Part shown: positions 664 to 33,130 of the stretch, piece by piece
How positions within the stretch are numbered: the first letter of the stretch is position 1
Layout of the letters: each line of letters opens with the position of its first letter
DNA from: Clostridiales bacterium
GTDB lineage: Bacteria > Bacillota > Clostridia > Lachnospirales > Bianqueaceae
NCBI GenBank assembly: GCA_024689505.1
Contig: JAILDJ010000250.1
Span: forward strand, 1-33,130
Direction of reading: 5' to 3'
Length of the DNA stretch: 33,130 nucleotides
The notes under the pieces: model-generated
Seen by the model: only the letters and a program-made list of their open reading frames with translations
What the model was told of the DNA's origin: nothing
Databases searched by the model: none
Program-made: the position numbers and the translations under genes

Positions 664-699
664 AAAAAACCGCCGAAATGCTTTAATTCAGCGGTTTTT
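664..699. terminator. Bidirectional hairpin terminator at the host-prophage junction
   Basis: A perfect 9-bp stem, AAAAACCGC (665-673) with GCGGTTTTT (691-699), closes a 17-base loop. The A-rich left arm and T-rich right arm would give a U-tract in either direction. It lies between the host gene's start and the end of the phage lysis operon, so it probably insulates the two. Confidence 0.6.
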
Positions 700-746
700 C
701 TTAGACCGGAGATGAAGAGATTTGAATTATCAAATATGCCTTTTTC

Positions 747-819: not shown

Positions 820-832
820 AAACTGTACCTTC

Positions 833-855
833 TTGTGGGTACAATTGTGGGTACA
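833..855. repeat. Tandem 11-bp repeat TTGTGGGTACA near the prophage left end
   Basis: TTGTGGGTACA is present at 833-843 and 845-855, separated by one base. A nearby CTGTACC (823-829) is inverted relative to the GGGTACAG at 849-856. Such short clustered repeats at a prophage end suit integrase or excisionase binding sites, but no site can be proved here. Confidence 0.4.
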
Positions 856-7191: not shown

Positions 7192-8720
7192 TCAATAAGC
7201 CCCATCTTTCTCGCCAGTGTCGCCCACTGCGTTGTGTCGATCGTCATGTTCACGTCTTTGACCCAGAGATCCCAACCGACATCCAGGTTCTTTCTCTTAC
7301 GTGTTCCATCGACGATCTTTCCAATTCCGATGGCTTCACCTGTCTCCGAGAAGTTCATGATGTCCGACGCCGTTGACAGCTGTGTAGTCCATACTGTGGT
7401 CGATCCGACTGTATCCCACACGGTGATCGTGATCGTGTATGCCGTGTCTTCGTCCGCCTGGAAATGAGTTGTCCCGGACAGAGTCGTAGTCTCTGCCACC
7501 GCAGTCTGTTCTGTCCCTCCAGTCTCCTTATATGTGATCTTAAGCTTTGTAGTGTTCTTTTCCGCATTGTTGACCACAAGAGATGTGAACCTGGCATCAT
7601 AGCTGACTTCACAGTAGTCGCCACTGTCATCCGCTATATACTGCTGTCCCTCTTTTCGGCAGCGTCTTACTTCCGGCGTAGCATTGAACCAAGGCTCTTT
7701 ATAGGCCAGGACACTGATGTTCTGCGTGTTTTTGGATGTCCTTCCTCGGGTGTCTGTGATCTGCGATACGACCTGGATCTGATTGCCGGCAGTCTTCAGC
7801 ACGGATGAAGTAAGTGTGTAGCTGGTATCTGCCTCTGTGCTGCTCTTTGTGGCTCCATCAACTGTCATCTCTGCTTTCTTGACTGTCGCTCCCTGTGCCT
7901 GAGACGTACTGACGTTCGCGGTGATCACAGCTTTCACCTTGGACTTGCCCTGAATATATCCTCCGAAGGTCGATGCCAGGTTTGCAGCATCTGATAACGC
8001 GACAGACGTAATGGCTGCTTTTATCGACGAAGGGATCGTCACCGTCACCGTCTTCGTGACCGGATCTCCGATCGCGGTCGATCCGTTATACGTCTGAAGG
8101 GTAACGGTCACGGACAGCGACGTTCCGCTGGTGTTCGCCTGTGCCAGCGTTGCCGCCGGTGTCCAACTGACTGTCGTATCCGATTCTTTTGTACAGATGG
8201 TCTGGCTCTTGCTGCCTACCTTCGCTGTGATCGTATGCGTATATGCACTGTTTTTCTTGGTCACAGTGATCGTCTGCTGTGTCCCGATCGTTCCATTTGA
8301 CACGCTGAATGATGATGCTCTGGCTATCGTCGTCAACGCGAGTGTGCCGGATCCGGATGCCGAGCCTGGCAGATACGATGTACTTCCAGAAGAACAGGAG
8401 AAGCTCATACTGATCGACTTTGTTCCGTCGCTCGAATGTTCGACCGTCTTCGTCTTGCTGACCAGCGTGATCGTTGATGACCCGTTGTAGTCTGAGAGCG
8501 TCCAACTGTAAGAGGTTCCATCGACCGTCACTGTTCCCTTTGGCTGTTCCGATCCGCTGAAGTCTTCCCAGTTATAACCCGTGTTCACCGGTGCTATCGT
8601 GAATTTGATCGATATCGTCGATGTGTTCGCCGACGCGCTTGTCGCTGTCTCCGTGACCACCAGAGAATACTTGTGATGCCCATGCGACGCAGTCTTTGTT
8701 ATGGTCTTTGATACTGCCAT
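7188..8720 (-). CDS. DUF859-like phage minor structural (tail) protein
   Basis: 510 residues, Ser/Thr-rich throughout and almost entirely beta-strand-like. The N-terminus (KTASHGHHKYSLVV... with ISIKFTIAPVNTGYNW) and the end (DIMNFSETGEAIGIGKI followed by a short tail) match the DUF859 family of siphophage minor structural proteins from Firmicutes. These are thought to be baseplate or tail-tip components. Several internal repeats of Ig-like strands are visible. The ATG follows the upstream stop by one base. Confidence 0.75.
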   Translation of the reverse strand: MAVSKTITKTASHGHHKYSLVVTETATSASANTSTISIKFTIAPVNTGYNWEDFSGSEQPKGTVTVDGTSYSWTLSDYNGSSTITLVSKTKTVEHSSDGTKSISMSFSCSSGSTSYLPGSASGSGTLALTTIARASSFSVSNGTIGTQQTITVTKKNSAYTHTITAKVGSKSQTICTKESDTTVSWTPAATLAQANTSGTSLSVTVTLQTYNGSTAIGDPVTKTVTVTIPSSIKAAITSVALSDAANLASTFGGYIQGKSKVKAVITANVSTSQAQGATVKKAEMTVDGATKSSTEADTSYTLTSSVLKTAGNQIQVVSQITDTRGRTSKNTQNISVLAYKEPWFNATPEVRRCRKEGQQYIADDSGDYCEVSYDARFTSLVVNNAEKNTTKLKITYKETGGTEQTAVAETTTLSGTTHFQADEDTAYTITITVWDTVGSTTVWTTQLSTASDIMNFSETGEAIGIGKIVDGTRKRKNLDVGWDLWVKDVNMTIDTTQWATLARKMGLIE

Positions 8721-8721
8721 C

Positions 8722-9621
8722 TCATACCACCTTCAGGAAAGACAGAGAACCATTGGATCTCGGAACGAATGCGAAGTTTCCGAACTGTGCTCGCTGTGTC
8801 AGTTTTACGATCACGTTGCCCGTATACAGATCCGTGCCATCCCACCATCCCAGATTCTCACCATCTTTGGAGAAGGATATGCAGTTCGTGTCGACTCCTT
8901 CTATGTTGACTGTCCCGACACGCAGCATGATACGGCTCTCGCCTTCTCCCGGTACCGGCCCCAGTTCAACTCCGCGAAAGGCACCATCTGTGATGAAGCG
9001 GATATAATCATAGAGCTGGTCGAAGGCGTCTGCATATGTGCCATCCACGGTATTGACTAATGTTCTGATCTCATTATTCTCCGCGTCGATATTGCTGAAC
9101 TGCTCGGCGAAGGCACTTATCACCGACTCGATCTGTCCCGCCATGTCTTCACGGACGGAATCGATATCCTCCTGCATCGATCCCAGCTCGTCTTCCATGC
9201 CCTCTTTATACTCTTCATATTCATCACGCAGCGTGCCTGCGGCAGAAGAAGCTCCTTCCGCCTCATTCTGAGCCGCTTCCGCGGTATCCTTCGCTTCTCC
9301 GGCATTCTTATTTGCCGTATTGGCATTGGAATCCGCTGTCTCCGCCACGGATGATGCGTAGATAGCTGTGGCGTCATCTGTCGGTGGTGCCGATTCATTC
9401 CCGGTGATCCATGCTCTGCCGCCGGCGACCCGGATGTTGATCAGATCTCCAGCTCTGGCAGCGATCGTCTTTCGGATCGGCGTCTCGTCGACACCTCCTG
9501 GGATGTGTACCCATACCGTGTCCGCTTCCACGCGCAGCACCGTCGCCTGCGTATCATATCCTTTGGTCTTTCTCTCCCTAGCCATCGTGAATGCCCGGAT
9601 CAGATCACTCTGGATGCTCAC
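8722..9621 (-). CDS. Tail spike/hub-like protein with OB-like N-terminus and coiled coil
   Basis: 299 residues with three parts. Residues ~20-80 look like an OB-type domain (ATVLRVEADTVWVHIPGG ... RAWITGNESAPP), as found in baseplate spike or hub proteins. Residues ~85-200 are an Ala/Glu-rich helical stalk, probably a trimeric coiled coil. Residues ~205-299 are a beta domain with GPVPGEGESRIMLRVG and WWDGTDLYTGN. The start is a GTG at 9621 with GGAGG upstream, overlapping the stop of the gene before. Probably the central spike/needle or a fibre stalk of the baseplate. Confidence 0.65.
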   Translation of the reverse strand: MSIQSDLIRAFTMARERKTKGYDTQATVLRVEADTVWVHIPGGVDETPIRKTIAARAGDLINIRVAGGRAWITGNESAPPTDDATAIYASSVAETADSNANTANKNAGEAKDTAEAAQNEAEGASSAAGTLRDEYEEYKEGMEDELGSMQEDIDSVREDMAGQIESVISAFAEQFSNIDAENNEIRTLVNTVDGTYADAFDQLYDYIRFITDGAFRGVELGPVPGEGESRIMLRVGTVNIEGVDTNCISFSKDGENLGWWDGTDLYTGNVIVKLTQRAQFGNFAFVPRSNGSLSFLKVV

Positions 9622-20461: not shown

Positions 20462-20491
20462 AAAAAGGCACCCATATCGAATGGATGCCTT
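20462..20491 (-). terminator. Hairpin terminator between large terminase and scaffold
   Basis: AAGGCACCCAT (20465-20475) pairs with ATGGATGCCTT (20481-20491) around a five-base loop with one mismatch (10 of 11 pairs). On the minus strand the hairpin is followed by TTTTTAG. It overlaps the terminase stop codon. It may partly end the packaging-gene transcript, or separate it from the capsid genes. Confidence 0.6.
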
Positions 20492-21887
20492 AATAGCCTG
20501 CTACTTGTTTTTTGCCCTGTTTATATTCATCTACCGCCCAGGCGGCCAGGATCACCGCGTCCATGAGCGACTGATCAGCTACTTCGCTGATCGATTGATA
20601 CCCGAATCCTCCATGGGATCCGATTGCGCGCTTCTCGCAGTTTGTGACTGCCTGTGTAAGCGCTCCCTGTTCCATGTGCCGGATCCGGCGCTGGAATATG
20701 TTCTGCTCAAATGCTGCATTCGCAGCGATATATTCTGTGACCTTCGGAAAAACGTAATATCTGATCTTTGCCTTCTTCAGCTCTTCCTCGATCAGAGTCT
20801 GGCCGTTCTTGCCGTCGATGATTACCTTATTGGCGTTCTTCCCAAGCGTCTTCAGGAAGTCCATGATCCAGGCGATGCCGTCCCTCATGTGCCGGTTCTC
20901 GACCGCTTCCACGAAGACATTATCGTCATCCGTCCTTCCAGCTACCGCCAGGCTGACTGTTTCTCCGTTCTTGTTGAACTTGATCCCGACAGAGATCTTC
21001 CCGACCAACTGCGGCAGGACCTCGGCCCGGCAGTTCTCCCAGTCGACTTTTGATATTGCTGACTTCAGGTTGTATTTAATCCAGAGGCCGAGCCGCTGGA
21101 TATTGAAATCGATCTCGTCATCGCCGATCTCATCTGCAATCGTATTCTCGTCCAGATGATACCCGAGCGATGGATTCGTTTCATACCAGAGATCTCTGTT
21201 ATTGACATCTGATTTCTGTTCGACACTCCACTCTGCCCAGCCGGCACGCTCCTTCTCTCCAGCCAGCACGCTCTTCCGGAAATCCCGGAAGACCGTTCCT
21301 GAAGAAACAGGCGTCGGAGGCGTCCCACAGAGGATCGTCTGTGGATTCTTGCTGTCCGAGACAACGTACTTCAGCGCAGATTCCTGGTCGGTCTTATATT
21401 CCTGGGCCTCATCGATCACCAGCAGATCATAGCCTTCGCCCAAGCCTCCCTTGGATGTCCTGGTACGAAAAGAGATGTATCCGCCGGTCCGCAGCCGGAT
21501 ATACTCGCTGCCTTTGGCCCGGATGTAGGAATATTGGATGCCGATGGCATCGAGCGCCGTGCACAGCCGCTCCCAGGCTGAATGTGATGTCGACGTCAGA
21601 TGCGCTGTGTGCAGGATCTTTTCGCCGACCATGAGGCCGTATAGCTCCCGGATGATGAGAAGCTCGCCCTTGCCGTTCCGGCGAGGAATAGAATACCCGA
21701 AGCGCGTGTGGATCCACTTGCCGTCATCTCCGACTGCCAGCAGATCGTATGCCAGGAGCTCCTGCCATGGTTCTGCCGGTTTTCCGGAGAGCTCATAGAG
21801 ATCTATCGCATCGGTGCCAACGGAGTTGCTGTAAGGCAGGATGAAGGCTGTTGTCGGTTCCTGGCGGCCGGTTCTTCTTTTTTTCAT
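20490..21887 (-). CDS. Phage terminase large subunit
   Basis: A 465-residue packaging motor. The ATPase part shows a Walker-A-like SIPRRNGKGE (residues ~66-75) and a Walker B LLVIDEAQE (~155-163), then an ILCGTPP coupling motif (~185-191). The C-terminal nuclease part includes VIIDGKNGQ (~355-363) and QSLMDAVILAAW near the end; the usual first Asp is not obvious in GIKFNKNGE (~301-309). It powers DNA translocation into the head and cuts the concatemer. Its position after portal and MuF genes, rather than next to the small subunit, is uncommon. No strong ribosome site is seen before its ATG. Confidence 0.9.
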   Translation of the reverse strand: MKKRRTGRQEPTTAFILPYSNSVGTDAIDLYELSGKPAEPWQELLAYDLLAVGDDGKWIHTRFGYSIPRRNGKGELLIIRELYGLMVGEKILHTAHLTSTSHSAWERLCTALDAIGIQYSYIRAKGSEYIRLRTGGYISFRTRTSKGGLGEGYDLLVIDEAQEYKTDQESALKYVVSDSKNPQTILCGTPPTPVSSGTVFRDFRKSVLAGEKERAGWAEWSVEQKSDVNNRDLWYETNPSLGYHLDENTIADEIGDDEIDFNIQRLGLWIKYNLKSAISKVDWENCRAEVLPQLVGKISVGIKFNKNGETVSLAVAGRTDDDNVFVEAVENRHMRDGIAWIMDFLKTLGKNANKVIIDGKNGQTLIEEELKKAKIRYYVFPKVTEYIAANAAFEQNIFQRRIRHMEQGALTQAVTNCEKRAIGSHGGFGYQSISEVADQSLMDAVILAAWAVDEYKQGKKQVAGY

Positions 21888-23404: not shown

Positions 23405-24634
23405 TCACGCTCCGCCTCGGACACCGGTCAGATCCCGGATTGCCTCGCTGTCGATGTAATCCGGCACGACCTGGTTGATCTTATAGGCGCCATCTCCGAT
23501 GCTGGCCATCATGCTGGCATCCGGCTCGAACAGCGGTTCCCAGATCGCCTGAGTCAAATAGACCTGTGATCTCTGGTAAGGATACTGATCCCGCAGACAC
23601 GCTGCCAGGTATCCCACATTGAGCAGGCCGCTTCCGAAGGTCTTCTGTGCCTTTCTGGCAGTTCCCCGCAGGCTTTCATGCGCCGCCTTAATAGCTTCAG
23701 CTGAGGATGGATTCTCGGACGGGAATCCCATATCATCCATCGTAAGGCCTGCATCTCCTCCAAACATTGAAGCCAGGAGCCGCATCATGTCCAGATGCGG
23801 GTTCATGGACGCCTGCTGGAACTGTCCCAGCGTCGGCTTGTCTCCATCCTGGTCTTTTGTGAACGTCAGCATGGTGGTGATCGTCGCACGCCAGCGATCC
23901 AGCACTTCCGCGTCCGGATCCAGGCCTGTTACATACTTCTGCGGCACCGAATAGAACTCCGCAGTGATCTCCGCTCTCTTGAGAGTTCTCGATGCAGCGT
24001 CTACAAGGTTCATGCCGGCACGGCTGATCCAGCTGTGGCCGAAGGGCCGCTTCGCGTCCGGCCTGAAGACGATAGGAACCAGCAGCGGATGTTCAGTCGG
24101 GTTCGCCCATCGGCCGGATTCTTCACCTTCTTTGAGGATGATCGTCTCTTCAGCGGTAAAATACGCCTCCAAGATGGGCCTCTGCATGTCATCACGCTCG
24201 AGGACCGCATATCCCTCGGTGAGCAAGCCTGTGATCTGATCCATGAGGCCGGTCGCATTGGCGCCATCGATGACCTGCAGTCTTGGATATCCTTCATCAT
24301 CTGCAGAAATATAGACAAAGCTGCAGCCAGCGATCAGCGCAGAAAGGATCGCACTGTCTACCATGATGTCCGGATTGTTCATGTTGAAGATCTCATTCAT
24401 GTTGAAATTGTCATCACGGAACTCTCGGAACACCAGGCGATTAGCCAGGGTATCCACCGCCTTCGTGCACCATCCCAGTGCGTTGTTCCGCCAGAACTTG
24501 AGCTCGTCCGGCGTAGAGATATCCATGTCTCTGACTGTCTGCTTCATCTCGTAATACTCATACCGCTTAAGGACACGGATCCGCTTCTGTGCCAGTCTTC
24601 TCCTGAGATATTCGATGCCTTTATACGCTGCCAT
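23405..24634 (-). CDS. Phage portal protein, SPP1 gp6-like
   Basis: 409 residues from the ATG at 24634, which has an AGAGGAGAAAA site; an earlier in-frame start exists but is less likely. Recognised by the SPP1-type portal pattern: an N-terminal helix with LKRYEYYEMK, an N-domain with LGWCTKAVDTLANRL, IVFRPDAKRPFGHSWI-type wing, and GFPSENPSSAEAIKAAHESL in the stem/crown part. It forms the ring at the head vertex for DNA entry. It overlaps the small terminase stop by 14 bases and ends just before MuF. Confidence 0.9.
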   Translation of the reverse strand: MAAYKGIEYLRRRLAQKRIRVLKRYEYYEMKQTVRDMDISTPDELKFWRNNALGWCTKAVDTLANRLVFREFRDDNFNMNEIFNMNNPDIMVDSAILSALIAGCSFVYISADDEGYPRLQVIDGANATGLMDQITGLLTEGYAVLERDDMQRPILEAYFTAEETIILKEGEESGRWANPTEHPLLVPIVFRPDAKRPFGHSWISRAGMNLVDAASRTLKRAEITAEFYSVPQKYVTGLDPDAEVLDRWRATITTMLTFTKDQDGDKPTLGQFQQASMNPHLDMMRLLASMFGGDAGLTMDDMGFPSENPSSAEAIKAAHESLRGTARKAQKTFGSGLLNVGYLAACLRDQYPYQRSQVYLTQAIWEPLFEPDASMMASIGDGAYKINQVVPDYIDSEAIRDLTGVRGGA

Positions 24635-25022
24635 TTTTCTCCTCTCTGGCTGCTCTCGCATTCTGCAGCCGCTCAAACAAATTGTCGCTCGCGGATTTCT
24701 CCTGCTCTTTCCGGAAGGTGTCTTCGCGGATCTTCTTCAGGCCAGCCGGCGTCAGCCCAAGATCCCGCCAATATGTCAACGCCGATTTATTCAAATCATC
24801 CCAGGTGGCCAGCAGAGGATTCTTGACCATATTCGTGGATCCGTTCTTATTCGTGTACTCCACGATCGGGCCCTCGTCCTCCTCGCGGTAGAGCTCCTCG
24901 ACCTGGTCTCTGCACTCCAGGATCCCGGCCAGCGCGTCGATCGGCGCGTCGAAGTACGGCATATAGGTGCCGGCCTCTCTGCAGGCCCTTTTGATCTTCG
25001 TTTTCCAGGCTCTTTTCTTCAT
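24621..25022 (-). CDS. Terminase small subunit, P27 family
   Basis: 133 residues. The segment NPLLATWDDLNKSALTYWRD followed by LGLTPAGLKKI matches the P27 terminase small subunit signature. The N-terminus (AWKTKIKRACREAGTYMPYF) is helical, and the C-terminus carries a charged coiled segment. It recognises the packaging site and recruits the large subunit. It is preceded by a GC-rich non-coding stretch where the cos site may lie. The ATG at 25022 lacks a strong Shine-Dalgarno sequence. Confidence 0.85.
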   Translation of the reverse strand: MKKRAWKTKIKRACREAGTYMPYFDAPIDALAGILECRDQVEELYREEDEGPIVEYTNKNGSTNMVKNPLLATWDDLNKSALTYWRDLGLTPAGLKKIREDTFRKEQEKSASDNLFERLQNARAAREEKNGSV

Positions 25023-25856: not shown

Positions 25857-26363
25857 TCAAGAACATCTGTTCTGTGGTCCCGGACCCATCTCTTCCAGGC
25901 TGCGTACTGCACGGTCATGGATCTGCCGAATGAATCTCTGACTGTACTGCATCTTCTCTGCGATCCGCTCCCATGACAGCCCATCGATATACCTGAACCA
26001 GATGATCCGCATCTCTATAGGCTTAAGTCTTCCGATGGCGTCACGGATCCGCGCCTGGCGGACCTTCAGGTCGTTGATCATGCCTTCCAGTGTGGACAGC
26101 CTGGCTACCCTGTTGCCGATCTGATCACCGGCCTTGCTGGTCGCCTTCGGCATCCCGGTGACTCTCGGACTCTTAATGCCGCCGTCCTGCAGGTCCTCGA
26201 TCTGCTCTTTGAGGCGCTGGATCTCTTCGTCCCACCGCCTATAGTTCTCCAGTTCCATTCTCGTCACTCTAGCAGTCGCCTCCTCCCGTCTTCTCCGCGT
26301 CACGTTCCACATGGCCGCTCCCGCTGTCGGATCTCTATAATGCTCTTTATTCCGGTATGCCAT
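25857..26363 (-). CDS. ArpU/RinA-like late transcription regulator (sigma-70 region 4-like, DUF1492)
   Basis: 168 residues from MAYRNKEHYRDPTAGA. The N-terminal half is a long charged coiled helix (about residues 20-70). The C-terminal half carries a sigma-region-4-like HTH: RLKPIEMRIIWFRYIDGLSW followed by ERIAEKMQYSQRFIRQ. Such proteins (ArpU/RinA type) activate late operons in Firmicutes phages. It is the last gene before the terminator and is followed by the late operon. The start has no clear Shine-Dalgarno and lies just after the upstream stop, so coupled translation is likely. Confidence 0.75.
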   Translation of the reverse strand: MAYRNKEHYRDPTAGAAMWNVTRRRREEATARVTRMELENYRRWDEEIQRLKEQIEDLQDGGIKSPRVTGMPKATSKAGDQIGNRVARLSTLEGMINDLKVRQARIRDAIGRLKPIEMRIIWFRYIDGLSWERIAEKMQYSQRFIRQIHDRAVRSLEEMGPGPQNRCS

Positions 26364-26365
26364 GT

Positions 26366-26968
26366 TTACAGATTGGACAGAGACTGTGGCTTCTGCTTCA
26401 GCTGCGAACCCGGCACGAACCGTGTGCATGCATCAGCCAGGCACCCTCTGCTATGACCAACCAGGATGATATAGTCGCAGCCATTGATCCCGGATCCTCG
26501 ATAGATGCATTGCCTGCACCGCTTCCGGTATTCGTTGCCGGATCTGATCTGTGCATTGGTCCTGGACTCGCCGAATTGTGCCCGGTTCCGTCTGCGTCTC
26601 TCTTTCTTTGACGGTCCCATCAGAGATCTGACATCCGGCTTTCTGTTCAGCTGCGGACGCCTGGTCATCTTCGGCAGATCTTTCGGATCGCCGCTCTCGA
26701 AGAAAGCCCGATCCGCGCCGATCACGTATGTCAGCGGATCTATTCCATAGAGCTTCTGCAGACGCAGCGCCAGAACTACATTGATCCCGCCGCCGCGGTA
26801 GTATCCGCTGTAGAAATACTGCTCGTTTACGCTGACGGCTATAGCCGCTTCCCTGAGCGTCACGCCTTTCTTGGCCAGCTCTCTGGCCAGTTTCTTCCTG
26901 TCATAGGCGACTGTCTTCCGCGTCTTCCAGAAAGGCTCATCCATGTTGATCTTCTGCTGATCCGTCAT
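26366..26968 (-). CDS. HTH protein fused to a cysteine-cluster domain
   Basis: 200 residues from MTDQQKINMD; I chose the second ATG, which has GGGAGG 8 bases away. Residues ~24-75 resemble an XRE-type HTH (LARELAKKGVTLREAAIAVS then NVVLALRLQKLYGI). A basic linker (KKERRRRNRAQF) leads to a C-terminal cysteine cluster, CRQC...CDYIILVGHSRGC..DAC, of a kind common as a separate small phage protein. Two modules that are usually separate are joined here, probably as a DNA-binding regulator with a zinc site. Confidence 0.6.
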   Translation of the reverse strand: MTDQQKINMDEPFWKTRKTVAYDRKKLARELAKKGVTLREAAIAVSVNEQYFYSGYYRGGGINVVLALRLQKLYGIDPLTYVIGADRAFFESGDPKDLPKMTRRPQLNRKPDVRSLMGPSKKERRRRNRAQFGESRTNAQIRSGNEYRKRCRQCIYRGSGINGCDYIILVGHSRGCLADACTRFVPGSQLKQKPQSLSNL

Positions 26969-27140
26969 CGCTATCATCCTCCCAGTGCTTCATGTCGTCC
27001 GGACGCTCCTCCCATTTGTATCCAGTGACCTGGTATCCATACAGTTTTTCGTCCTCTCCCGCCACCTGGATCGTGACAGTGGCCTCATCGGCCCGCCCGG
27101 TCTCGTCTCTTCCGAGCATCTTTAGAATCAATACTTTCAC
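26937..27140 (-). CDS. Small protein overlapping the Rep gene, function unknown
   Basis: 67 residues with a very acidic C-terminus (HWEDDSDDGSAEDQHG). I prefer the GTG start at 27140 with AAGAGG upstream; an ATG at 27164 is also possible. It overlaps the 3' end of the HUH Rep gene by about 56 bases in another frame. No family is recognised; the VTIQVAGEDEKLYGY segment is strand-like. Confidence 0.5.
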   Translation of the reverse strand: MKVLILKMLGRDETGRADEATVTIQVAGEDEKLYGYQVTGYKWEERPDDMKHWEDDSDDGSAEDQHG

Positions 27141-27885
27141 GCTTTCGCCTCTTCTTTCGTTCATTCCTGCGCTGCAGCCGGATCAGCGTATAGGTCCTGT
27201 ACGGATGCCCTGTGATCGGATTGACGCCCTCACGGAATGACTCCTTATCCAGGTACCAGCCAGCCGGCACTCTGATCTTGTCGGTGATCTTCCAGCCCTG
27301 GTGTACGCTCTTCTCCGGCTCCGGCAGCGGCAGGTTCTTTGATGTCGAGTAGCACGCCTCACGAAGGCGCGATTCTGTCTTCGGTGTCTTGGTCAGATAC
27401 TTGGCCAGCTCGGCAAATTCACCTTTTTGGTACAGGAGCTTGATATCGACCATACCATGCTTCCATAGCCTGGTGATGATCAGGTCGAGATCCGGGATGC
27501 GGTTCAGGACCATGTGGACGTGCCAGGCGCCTCTGGATCCACATTCTATGTTCCGGATCCACTTCAGCTCCCGGCCCGCCTTCCGGTATTCCTTACGCAG
27601 CTGCCTGGTGAACCAGCCGATATCCTTCTTGGCCTGGGCCATGTCCTGAGGGCGTCTGTCCTGCGCATAAGTCAGCGTGACGAAATAATCGTTCACATCG
27701 AAGTGCTTCCGCAGTCTGTGCCGGCAGCGCTTCTCCTTCTGATACTGGTTCTGCTTTTCTATCTGCTCCGGCGTCGCCTTCTTCTTCCGCTCTCGGCTCA
27801 TGCCCGGAGCACCATATCGGCCATCGTGGTAGTCCTCCACCTCGATGGCGTTCAGGAACCGATAGACCTTGCGCTTGTATGCCAT
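27085..27885 (-). CDS. HUH replication initiator/endonuclease (G2P/ORF2-like Rep)
   Basis: 266 residues from the ATG at 27885 (GGCGGAG site); a longer TTG start is less likely. It shows the three Rep motifs in order: motif I YFVTLTY (residues 67-73), motif II HVH (122-124, in WHVHMVLNR), and the nicking Tyr motif YLTK (163-166). HUH Reps nick one strand at an origin, stay bound to the 5' end and start rolling-circle replication. In phages of this type they are the replication protein. No helicase, primase or polymerase gene is present in the window, so this is the only recognisable replication gene. The basic C-terminus (RNERKKRRKRESIDSKDARK) may bind DNA. Confidence 0.85.
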   Translation of the reverse strand: MAYKRKVYRFLNAIEVEDYHDGRYGAPGMSRERKKKATPEQIEKQNQYQKEKRCRHRLRKHFDVNDYFVTLTYAQDRRPQDMAQAKKDIGWFTRQLRKEYRKAGRELKWIRNIECGSRGAWHVHMVLNRIPDLDLIITRLWKHGMVDIKLLYQKGEFAELAKYLTKTPKTESRLREACYSTSKNLPLPEPEKSVHQGWKITDKIRVPAGWYLDKESFREGVNPITGHPYRTYTLIRLQRRNERKKRRKRESIDSKDARKRRDRAGR

Positions 27886-27931
27886 TTTCTCCGCCCTTTT
27901 GTACCCAACTTTAATATCCTTATCAAGGCCG

Positions 27932-27954
27932 AAAGTGGGATGTTCTCCCACTTT
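27932..27954. other. Perfect 9-bp hairpin just upstream of the Rep gene (candidate nicking origin)
   Basis: AAAGTGGGA (27932-27940) pairs perfectly with TCCCACTTT (27946-27954) around TGTTC. It lies about 47 bases upstream of the Rep start. On the minus (coding) strand no T-tract follows, so it is not a good terminator for the early operon; on the plus strand a T-run follows. HUH Reps commonly nick at a hairpin beside their gene, so this is a candidate origin. Confidence 0.45.
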
Positions 27955-27988
27955 TTTTGAAATCCTTATGATTGGAAAATCCTGCCTA

Positions 27989-28318
27989 TTATTTGTTCGC
28001 AAACGGTTCCGGTATATCTACCTTCCAATCCGAAGTGGCTGCCTTCATGGCGCCCAGTTTGATCTTCTCCCAGCCGCGGAGCTTGTTCCGCACCGCGTTG
28101 AGTTCCCGGATCCGCTCTTCTCCCTGATATCCTGCATCTACCATGTAGCTTCTGTCCCAGTAATCCTGCCGGAGATCTTCGGATCCAAGCCTCAGCCGGA
28201 CCTCGAGGAACGTCATCCTTGTGAATAGATGGATCTCCGCTTCCGCAAAGCCCGTGCCGTTGAGACGCACGCACGATGCGGTGATCTCCTGGACCATCTC
28301 ATTTTCTTTCTCTGTCAT
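27989..28318 (-). CDS. Conserved-looking early phage protein, function unknown
   Basis: 109 residues beginning MTEKENEMVQEITAS. Contains IHLFTRMTFLEVRLRL and WEKIKLGAMKAATSDWKVDI; helix and strand mixed, no cysteine cluster, no membrane segment. I do not recognise it. GGAGG lies 5 bases before the ATG. It overlaps the upstream gene by about 20 bases and lies before the Rep gene. Confidence 0.55.
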   Translation of the reverse strand: MTEKENEMVQEITASCVRLNGTGFAEAEIHLFTRMTFLEVRLRLGSEDLRQDYWDRSYMVDAGYQGEERIRELNAVRNKLRGWEKIKLGAMKAATSDWKVDIPEPFANK

Positions 28319-28481
28319 CTCGTCCTCCTAAAACAGGCTCTTCTATCCATCTTCCGTGATTTACTGCGTCTATGGATGGCTCTTCGTCTATTATCTGTTC
28401 AAGCGTCTTTTTATCTTTCAAAATTGCAGATGCCGCTATTGATTGCTTCAACGAAATTCTGCTGATTAAATCATCGTTCAT
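28299..28481 (-). CDS. Small early phage protein with DLISR/AVNHGRW motifs
   Basis: 60 residues from the ATG at 28481 (GAGG site). The start NDDLISRISLKQSI and later EPSIDAVNHGRWIEE match a very common small phage-protein pattern in Lachnospiraceae and Clostridia prophages, of unknown function. It overlaps the upstream gene by 11 bases and the downstream one by 20. The DNA here is AT-rich compared with neighbouring genes. Confidence 0.6.
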   Translation of the reverse strand: MNDDLISRISLKQSIAASAILKDKKTLEQIIDEEPSIDAVNHGRWIEEPVLGGRDDRERK

Positions 28482-28725
28482 ATCCTCTATCCACCTCACC
28501 GCCGCTTACTCCGTTGCATCTAAGTGCGTATTTCATGCCGTAAATAACGCCATCACGATAACGTAATTCATATTTAAGCTGATTTTCTTCTGCGACGTGA
28601 CGGTTATGTTCTACAGCCAATCTTGCTTCTTCAAGTTCTGCTTTTAACTTCTCGTTTTCTGCTCTCAACATATTATTCACCGCACCCAGTTCTTCTCTTG
28701 TTATCTCTCTTACAATTTCACTCAT
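28471..28725 (-). CDS. Small coiled-coil early protein
   Basis: 84 residues beginning MSEIVREITREELGAVNNML. A long coiled-coil helix covers about residues 10-50 (ENEKLKAELEEARLAVEH). The end (RDGVIYGMKYALRCNGVSGG) is a commonly seen phage-protein tail. Function unknown. GAAAGGAAAG precedes the ATG. Confidence 0.55.
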   Translation of the reverse strand: MSEIVREITREELGAVNNMLRAENEKLKAELEEARLAVEHNRHVAEENQLKYELRYRDGVIYGMKYALRCNGVSGGEVDRGYER

Positions 28726-28756
28726 GATTCTTTCCTTTCTCAGTCATTTCCTTCTT

Positions 28757-29008
28757 CTAAAACAGACTCAACTGTTGATCTCTGTAATGATGCTCGTTCC
28801 ATGCTCTGACCGCGAGCCATGGCATTGTGAACAATTCTGTTCTCTTCCCACACACTTCGCACTCAAGATAAATATCCTTCGGATCATTTGTTTCTACCGT
28901 CATTAACTTGGGGTATACTTCACAGCATTTCTCCGCCGATGTTGCGTAGTACCAGCCTAATGCGTTGCCCAGTCTCTGTTGGTGATTCTTTGCTTCTTCT
29001 TTCGTCAT
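28757..29008 (-). CDS. Small zinc-ribbon early protein (Lar-like)
   Basis: 83 residues from the ATG at 29008, which overlaps the upstream stop as ATGA and has GGAG upstream. The second half contains CEVCGKRTELF then AVRAWNEHH. A single CxxC plus A-AWN is typical of Lar-like small zinc-ribbon proteins, one group of which counteracts host restriction; a single CxxC does not prove this. C34/C35 and the residues nearby could complete a metal site. Confidence 0.5.
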   Translation of the reverse strand: MTKEEAKNHQQRLGNALGWYYATSAEKCCEVYPKLMTVETNDPKDIYLECEVCGKRTELFTMPWLAVRAWNEHHYRDQQLSLF

Positions 29009-32291: not shown

Positions 32292-32311
32292 ATCAAAAGG
32301 AGGGCATGCCT

Positions 32312-33130
32312 ATGAGATCCAAATCAACGGGCAGCATCCGGAAGCGCGAGCGCAACGGAGTGATCACCTGGGAAGGCCGTCTGACTGTCGGTTATGATCC
32401 CGGTACCGGCAAGCGTCTCGTCAGATCGGTCTATGGAAAGACGCAGCGTGAAGTCCAGCAGAAGATGACTGATCTGATCTACGAGGTCGAACACAATCGC
32501 TATATCGCTCCCATCAAGATGACCGTCGGTCAGTGGATGGATGAATATCTGGATACATACTGTAGGGATCAATTGAAGCCTTACACCGTCATGAAGTATG
32601 AGAGTGATACCAAGAACTATATAAAGCCCTATCTTGGCAATATCCCTCTACAGGATGTCTCCGGTAAAGACCTCCAGAAGATGGCAAACGGCATGATCAG
32701 GAAGGGCTTATCCGTGAAGACTGTGCGCTGTGCTACCGGCCTATGCCATAAAGCATTCGATACAGCTATCAAGCTCGGATACCTGGATACGAATCCTGCA
32801 GACAAGATCACCGTCAAGAAGGCTGTGAAGGAAGAGGTCCAGCCTCTGACGGATGCAGAGATCCCCCGCTTCCTGGATGCGATACGTGGCGATCGGTTTG
32901 AGAATGCCTTTGCCATTTCTTTGTTCGGTGGGCTGCGTGAAGGCGAATGCCTCGGTCTATCCTGGCGTCAGGTCGATCGCGAAAAAGGAACCCTTTTGAT
33001 CGAGCAGCAACTGCAGCGCAGAAAAGAAGGCTTCGTCGTGGTCCCGTCTACCAAATCCAGCAGACCAAGAACCGTACACCTGCCGCAGATCGCAATCGGA
33101 TATCTGAAGGACGAGGAGCTGAAACAGAAA
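32312..33130 (+). CDS. Tyrosine site-specific integrase (3' part missing)
   Basis: The gene starts at 32312 with AAAGGAGGG upstream and is open to the window end (273 codons). It has an N-terminal arm-binding segment (GSIRKRERNGVITWEGRLTV, with KRLVRSVYGKTQREVQQKM), a SAM-like core-binding domain (MTVGQWMDEYLDTYC onward, residues ~70-160) and the start of the catalytic domain. The first catalytic Arg is in GLREGECLGLSW and the Lys region is TKSSRPRTVHLP. The HxxR and Tyr lie beyond the window. It integrates and, with an excisionase, excises the prophage. Confidence 0.93.
   Translation, partial: MRSKSTGSIRKRERNGVITWEGRLTVGYDPGTGKRLVRSVYGKTQREVQQKMTDLIYEVEHNRYIAPIKMTVGQWMDEYLDTYCRDQLKPYTVMKYESDTKNYIKPYLGNIPLQDVSGKDLQKMANGMIRKGLSVKTVRCATGLCHKAFDTAIKLGYLDTNPADKITVKKAVKEEVQPLTDAEIPRFLDAIRGDRFENAFAISLFGGLREGECLGLSWRQVDREKGTLLIEQQLQRRKEGFVVVPSTKSSRPRTVHLPQIAIGYLKDEELKQK

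Follow-up and report, generated by a model that had tools for sequence, protein, structure and literature searches.

The window, i.e. the whole stretch of DNA that was analysed (33,130 nt, contig C177 of its genome, from a Clostridia bacterium), carries a prophage in which the following genes and end features were located:

665 to 726, minus strand: partial tRNA-Ser 3' end, likely the left-end att site (84% match to the tRNA-Ser-like sequence beside the integrase in L039, a sister prophage)
20490 to 21887, minus strand: large terminase (TerL_nuclease; PHROG 9, E=5e-71)
24621 to 25022, minus strand: small terminase, Terminase_4 / P27 type (PF05119, E=1.6e-9)
25857 to 26429, minus strand: late-gene transcription regulator, sigma-70 region 4-like (Sigma70_r4, E=1e-8; PHROG 36)
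27085 to 27885, minus strand: rep, encoding a 266-aa single-Tyr HUH rolling-circle replication initiator (PF23343 REP_ORF2-G2P; PHROG 3584)
32306 to 33130, plus strand: integrase, cut by the contig end and complete in L039 (Phage_int_SAM_3, Phage_integrase)

Judged by its gene content, which includes terminase and tail genes (a 901-aa tape-measure-like and a 1012-aa tail-like ORF, recognised by inspection), the prophage is a tailed dsDNA siphophage of the Caudoviricetes. The P27-type small terminase proposed in the first-pass annotation was corroborated by the PF05119 (Terminase_4) match. In the sister prophage, which comes from the same genus (L039, genome G084), the integrase gene is present in full, with a tRNA-Ser-like sequence within ~130 nt after it; ARAGORN called a tRNA-Ser at the homologous place in the genome of the window, and the truncated L039 copy was not called. 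Except for the final portion of the integrase, the whole prophage is probably contained in the window. A separate replication module hidden past position 33130, which the first-pass annotation had named as a finding that would speak against its reading, is unlikely, because the integrase of the sister prophage adjoins this tRNA-Ser-like sequence. Additionally, a 25-bp sequence, TCTTGTGGGTACAATTGTGGGTACA, was common to both prophage ends, at the left end of the window (831-855) and at the integrase end of the sister (L039 1-173). From their sequence, the tRNA-Ser 3' end piece (665-726) and TCTTGTGGGTACAATTGTGGGTACA likely represent the att core and integrase arm sites.

Besides rep, the early region (25.8-32.3 kb) contains the sigma-70-region-4-like regulator, an excisionase-like HTH protein, a repressor, a DUF3846 protein and many short ORFs of unassigned function. 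No match to a polymerase, helicase, primase, helicase loader or SSB was obtained in this region with Pfam or PHROG, and all early ORFs other than rep and the integrase are at most 203 aa long, too short for a polymerase, helicase or primase. Rep is the sole recognised replication protein, as had been claimed before.

The rep gene starts with the ATG at 27885, preceded by GGCGGAG; the interval 27085-27954 originally assigned to it comprises the gene plus a hairpin and not the gene alone. The product was correctly described as a 266-residue HUH Rep with three motifs: it matched PF23343 with 69.5 bits (E=3.2e-19), above the curated cut-off of 27.8, as well as PHROG 3584 (replication initiation, E=3e-51), and motif 1 YFVTLTY lies at residues 67-73, HVH at 122-124 and YLTK at 163-166. 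In an alignment of 45 homologs H122, H124 and Y163 were invariant and K166 nearly so, i.e. both the HUH and the YxxK signature are present. The P2-type gpA profile PF05840 gave no match at E<=0.01, and Rep has a single Tyr, in YLTK. The Rep_1 (pC194) profile PF01446 was absent from the Pfam matches of Rep at E<=0.01, though the origin sequences are alike (see below), and a PDB sequence search with the Rep profile gave no matches. Modelled with AlphaFold2 from the 45 homologs, Rep reached a pLDDT of 87.5 (the single-sequence model was poor), and siphovirus ORF2/G2P proteins were the nearest predicted viral structures. The model core (residues ~61-186) matched SIRV1 ORF119 with Z 8.7, B19 NS1 with 8.3 and AAV Rep with 7.8; since unrelated ferredoxin-like folds reach nearly equal Z (~7-8), the fold by itself is suggestive, and the case for HUH identity, made at the level of sequence, is carried by the invariant HUH and Tyr residues.

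The stretch between rep and its upstream gene contains the features of a predicted double-strand origin:

27886 to 27970, minus strand: whole predicted origin stretch, from the upstream gene to rep
27906 to 27927, minus strand: conserved origin motif CTTGATAAGGATATTAAAGTTG, the best matrix site, with the likeliest nick predicted at G27924/A27923 (CTTG^ATAA)
27932 to 27954, minus strand: 9-bp perfect hairpin AAAGTGGGA-GAACA-TCCCACTTT, the 5' element of the predicted origin, enriched in relatives
27962 to 27969, minus strand: ATAAGGAT, exact direct repeat of the inner 8-mer of the motif (27916-27923), on the far side of the hairpin

Between the window and the sister prophage this intergenic stretch is identical (85/85 nt), compared with an identity of 93.5% for rep and 89.1% for the upstream gene. 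The perfect 9-bp hairpin reported in the first-pass annotation is real, but it lies 46 nt and not 47 bases 5' of the rep ATG. Only two perfect hairpins with arms of at least 9 bp and loops of 3-10 exist in the window, the other one being at 768, near the left end of the prophage. Among the relatives, a stem of at least 5 bp ending near the motif was present in 22/43, against a mean of 6.9 and a maximum of 13 in 200 shuffled sets; in a control window such a stem was found in 7/42. This shuffle and control-window test was used instead of RNAalifold, which, given the differing lengths of loops and spacers, found no common pairs when 32 origins were aligned with MAFFT. Stem sequences differ among the relatives, and a perfect stem of at least 5 bp occurs in just half of them, yet a hairpin is significantly enriched at this position.

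Lying between two genes, the hairpin might instead be an intrinsic terminator of the upstream gene, with the motif acting as rep promoter or operator and the origin being located elsewhere; in relatives a run of three to five T often comes after the 3' arm of the hairpin. We consider this very improbable. When positions 27000-29000 were scanned, no terminator was found on either strand and no sigma-70-like site, and both the terminator and the promoter reading were rejected. TTGATA and TATTAA are ~5 nt apart, which is too close for -35/-10 boxes, and several relatives have a separate, stronger hairpin farther upstream of rep. Moreover, the motif stays with the Rep family even where the upstream gene or the host order is a different one, and it picks the pC194 origin.

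The nick-like motif at 27906-27927, which was missed in the first-pass annotation, is stronger evidence for an origin than the hairpin. In 74 non-redundant rep upstream regions, an ungapped 22-nt motif (consensus CTTGATAAnnnTATTAACTTA) was located on the coding strand, mostly 30-90 nt 5' of the rep start codon and usually 4-10 nt 3' of the hairpin. It scored above 9 bits in 49 regions and was found in 60 with looser anchoring; ~14 had no recognisable motif. Information content peaked at the motif, at a G-rich arm ~33 nt 5' of ATTA and at a C-rich arm plus TTT ~20 nt 5' of it, and stayed at background elsewhere. With a matrix built from 42 unique motifs, window and sister prophage left out, the top site in the 33 kb was 27927-27906 on the minus strand with 17.1 bits, followed by a site with 9.4. 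The motif of the window is identical in the sister prophage, and the sister genome G084 has a single exact copy of the 17-nt motif core, at rep; with two mismatches allowed, counts of the core became unspecific in whole AT-rich genomes. The exact 48-nt origin pattern retrieved no contig from IMG/VR.

The direct repeat ATAAGGAT flanking the hairpin is a possible Rep-binding repeat by its sequence and was not seen generally in distant relatives. The first-pass annotation had suggested looking for conservation of hairpin and nick sequence in front of homologous rep genes, and such conservation did emerge, in the form of a hairpin of variable sequence and a conserved CTTGATAAnnnTATTAAC motif. At the sequence level, the stretch has what characterizes a rolling-circle origin, a nick-like sequence with adjacent secondary structure in cis to rep. 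In five relatives (L006, L008, L012, L013 and L014) a dyad GCCATA...TATGGC surrounds a -10-like TATAGCAT upstream of rep, and a second hairpin is located ~150-180 nt upstream of the gene; both are absent in the window, whose rep intergenic region is short.

Applied to pC194, the matrix from the phages ranked CTTGATAATAAGGGTAACTATT first of 5,778 positions, by a small margin (9.7 vs 8.8 for the second). This sequence falls within the 36-bp origin/termination fragment of pC194 (PMC7072734). The phage element resembles pC194/pUB110-type plasmids in its CTTGATAA-type origin sequence, whereas their Rep belongs to another Pfam family (Rep_1, PF01446) and the replicon here is a ~32-kb phage. The annotated origin of phiX174, CTTGATATTAATAAC, came 21st of 10,730 by matrix; the likeness to the Microviridae/phiX174 gpA origin consists in CTTGATA followed by a TATTAA-like sequence, and differences are the ssDNA genome of that phage, its two-tyrosine gpA and the weak matrix rank.

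Rolling-circle replication could also start from a nick in the other half of the motif, at TATT^AAC, in the style of the circovirus-type nonanucleotide, a sub-variant that we regard as rather unlikely. ATTA is the most invariant block, in part due to anchoring, and part of the Rep clade of the window retains the ATATTAAAG half but has a degenerate CTTG. On the other hand, CTTG is conserved at a distance and is common to the pC194 and phiX174 origins and to pGTG5-like plasmids. The exact cut site is uncertain because the motif is missing in the ~14/74 regions and because of the degenerate CTTG in this part of the clade; CTTG^ATAA is the likeliest position.

Homologs of Rep were detected in 47 of the 295 genomes sampled in the order and in 47 of the 391 in the class. 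PF23343 (ORF2/G2P) Reps of siphoviruses, inoviruses, microviruses and small Bacillota plasmids belong to the same or a close protein family, most members of which are annotated merely as replication protein. The Rep of the window is similar to those of the cultured Butyrivibrio phages Arawn and Idris, of induced Latilactobacillus phages, of bajarodino virus 41 and of the plasmids pGTG5 and pHT926. In the Arawn genome (31,118 bp) Rep and two SSBs are annotated, and no polymerase, helicase or primase is; the describing paper (PMC7372960) classes Arawn as a siphovirus and is silent on replication. Arawn (L034) also has, between its tail and lysis genes, a gene annotated as reverse transcriptase (8262-9407). 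In the stretches viewed of TMW 1.1381 P1, TMW 1.46 P2, TMW 1.1365 P1 and the Terrisporobacter phage TPDSL_ph2, Rep was present, in some together with SSB, and the motif was the top matrix site in the TPDSL_ph2 and TMW 1.1365 P1 stretches. Faecalibacterium phage FP_Toutatis encodes a related Rep and a primase, and the motif is absent. Likewise, bajarodino virus 41 (L037), a filamentous member of the Inoviridae, has a related Rep (31% identity) and no CTTG...ATTA motif upstream of it. Among small plasmids, pGTG5 (1,540 bp), pHT926 (1,786 bp) and a 2,485-bp Lysinibacillus plasmid have CTTGATT...ATTA directly 5' of a related rep, found by reading and not by matrix, and with slightly different spacing; Fusobacterium and other plasmids have no such sequence 5' of rep.

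SSB, ParA, VRR nuclease and RNase H were enriched among the neighbours of rep in relatives, and no DnaB, DnaC or primase was among the 25 commonest neighbour families, a survey depth at which rare replication genes beside rep may be missed. Partition genes (ParA-like and also ParB-like) lie beside rep in some relatives, among them L093, L094 and L096, which suggests that some such phages persist as plasmids. The ParA, SSB, RNase H or VRR nuclease genes beside rep in some relatives, like the many small early ORFs of the window without assigned function, would leave room for another, unrecognised initiator, or host DnaA, to replicate the prophage, with Rep as an accessory nuclease. This has little probability in our view: the unassigned early ORFs are all short, Rep is the only annotated initiator in the cultured phages, and plasmids as tiny as 1.5-2.5 kb whose Reps are related have to rely on Rep and origin.

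Among tailed dsDNA phages, it is mainly the P2-like myophages for which textbooks describe rolling-circle replication. P2, a temperate phage with a tail and a dsDNA genome, uses the HUH initiator gpA and host enzymes for this mode of replication; P2 gpA is much larger and has two tyrosines, and the P2 origin is inside gene A. The prophage is like P2 in combining an HUH initiator with a temperate tailed dsDNA phage. It differs in that its Rep has 266 aa, a single Tyr and the PF23343 rather than the PF05840 domain, in being a siphophage, and in that the predicted origin lies upstream of rep. HUH Reps of dsDNA Myoviridae are on record (PMC6668415). In the literature searched, the origin of siphophage PF23343 members was not described, which is weak evidence of absence.

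An HUH-motif protein, a conserved origin-like element and no other replication genes were found in the prophage, and the same arrangement was found in related and cultured phages. We regard it as highly probable that Rep nicks the hairpin-plus-motif element by its own gene and, as the sole initiator, drives rolling-circle replication with host enzymes. The prophage would presumably be excised and circularised, whereupon Rep would recognise the hairpin and motif just 5' of rep. Y163 would cut the coding strand, likeliest at CTTG^ATAA (27924/27923), leaving Rep attached to the 5' end and a free 3'-OH, which would prime unidirectional synthesis of the leading strand, first through rep and then around the circle. 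For elongation and lagging-strand synthesis the phage would use the host's helicase, polymerase III, primosome and SSB, as in P2 and pC194, and Rep would finally close or re-nick at the regenerated origin. Of this scheme, the nicking itself, its strand and exact position, the termination and the part played by host factors are inferred, the position from similarity.

That tailed phages can encode HUH Reps is established, and annotations of this Rep family exist for many metagenomic siphoviruses. The apparent novelty lies in the conserved origin element, together with the argument that origin and Rep make up the entire replication module. Tentatively, and with slightly less than even confidence, we propose that a Rep of ~260 aa and a ~60-nt hairpin/CTTG^ATAAnnnTATTAAC origin may form a compact, portable replicon that occurs in small plasmids as well as in siphophages of Clostridia and Bacilli, and that this replicon alone may suffice to replicate whole tailed-phage genomes of 30 kb. 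The predicted cut site and the catalytic residue are directly testable, and the origin matrix can be used to annotate other phages. Altogether, a large group of Clostridia siphophages, human-faecal and rumen phages included, seems to carry a minimal, single-gene replication module whose origin is readable from the sequence, which would tie tailed-phage replication to plasmid (pC194-type) origins.
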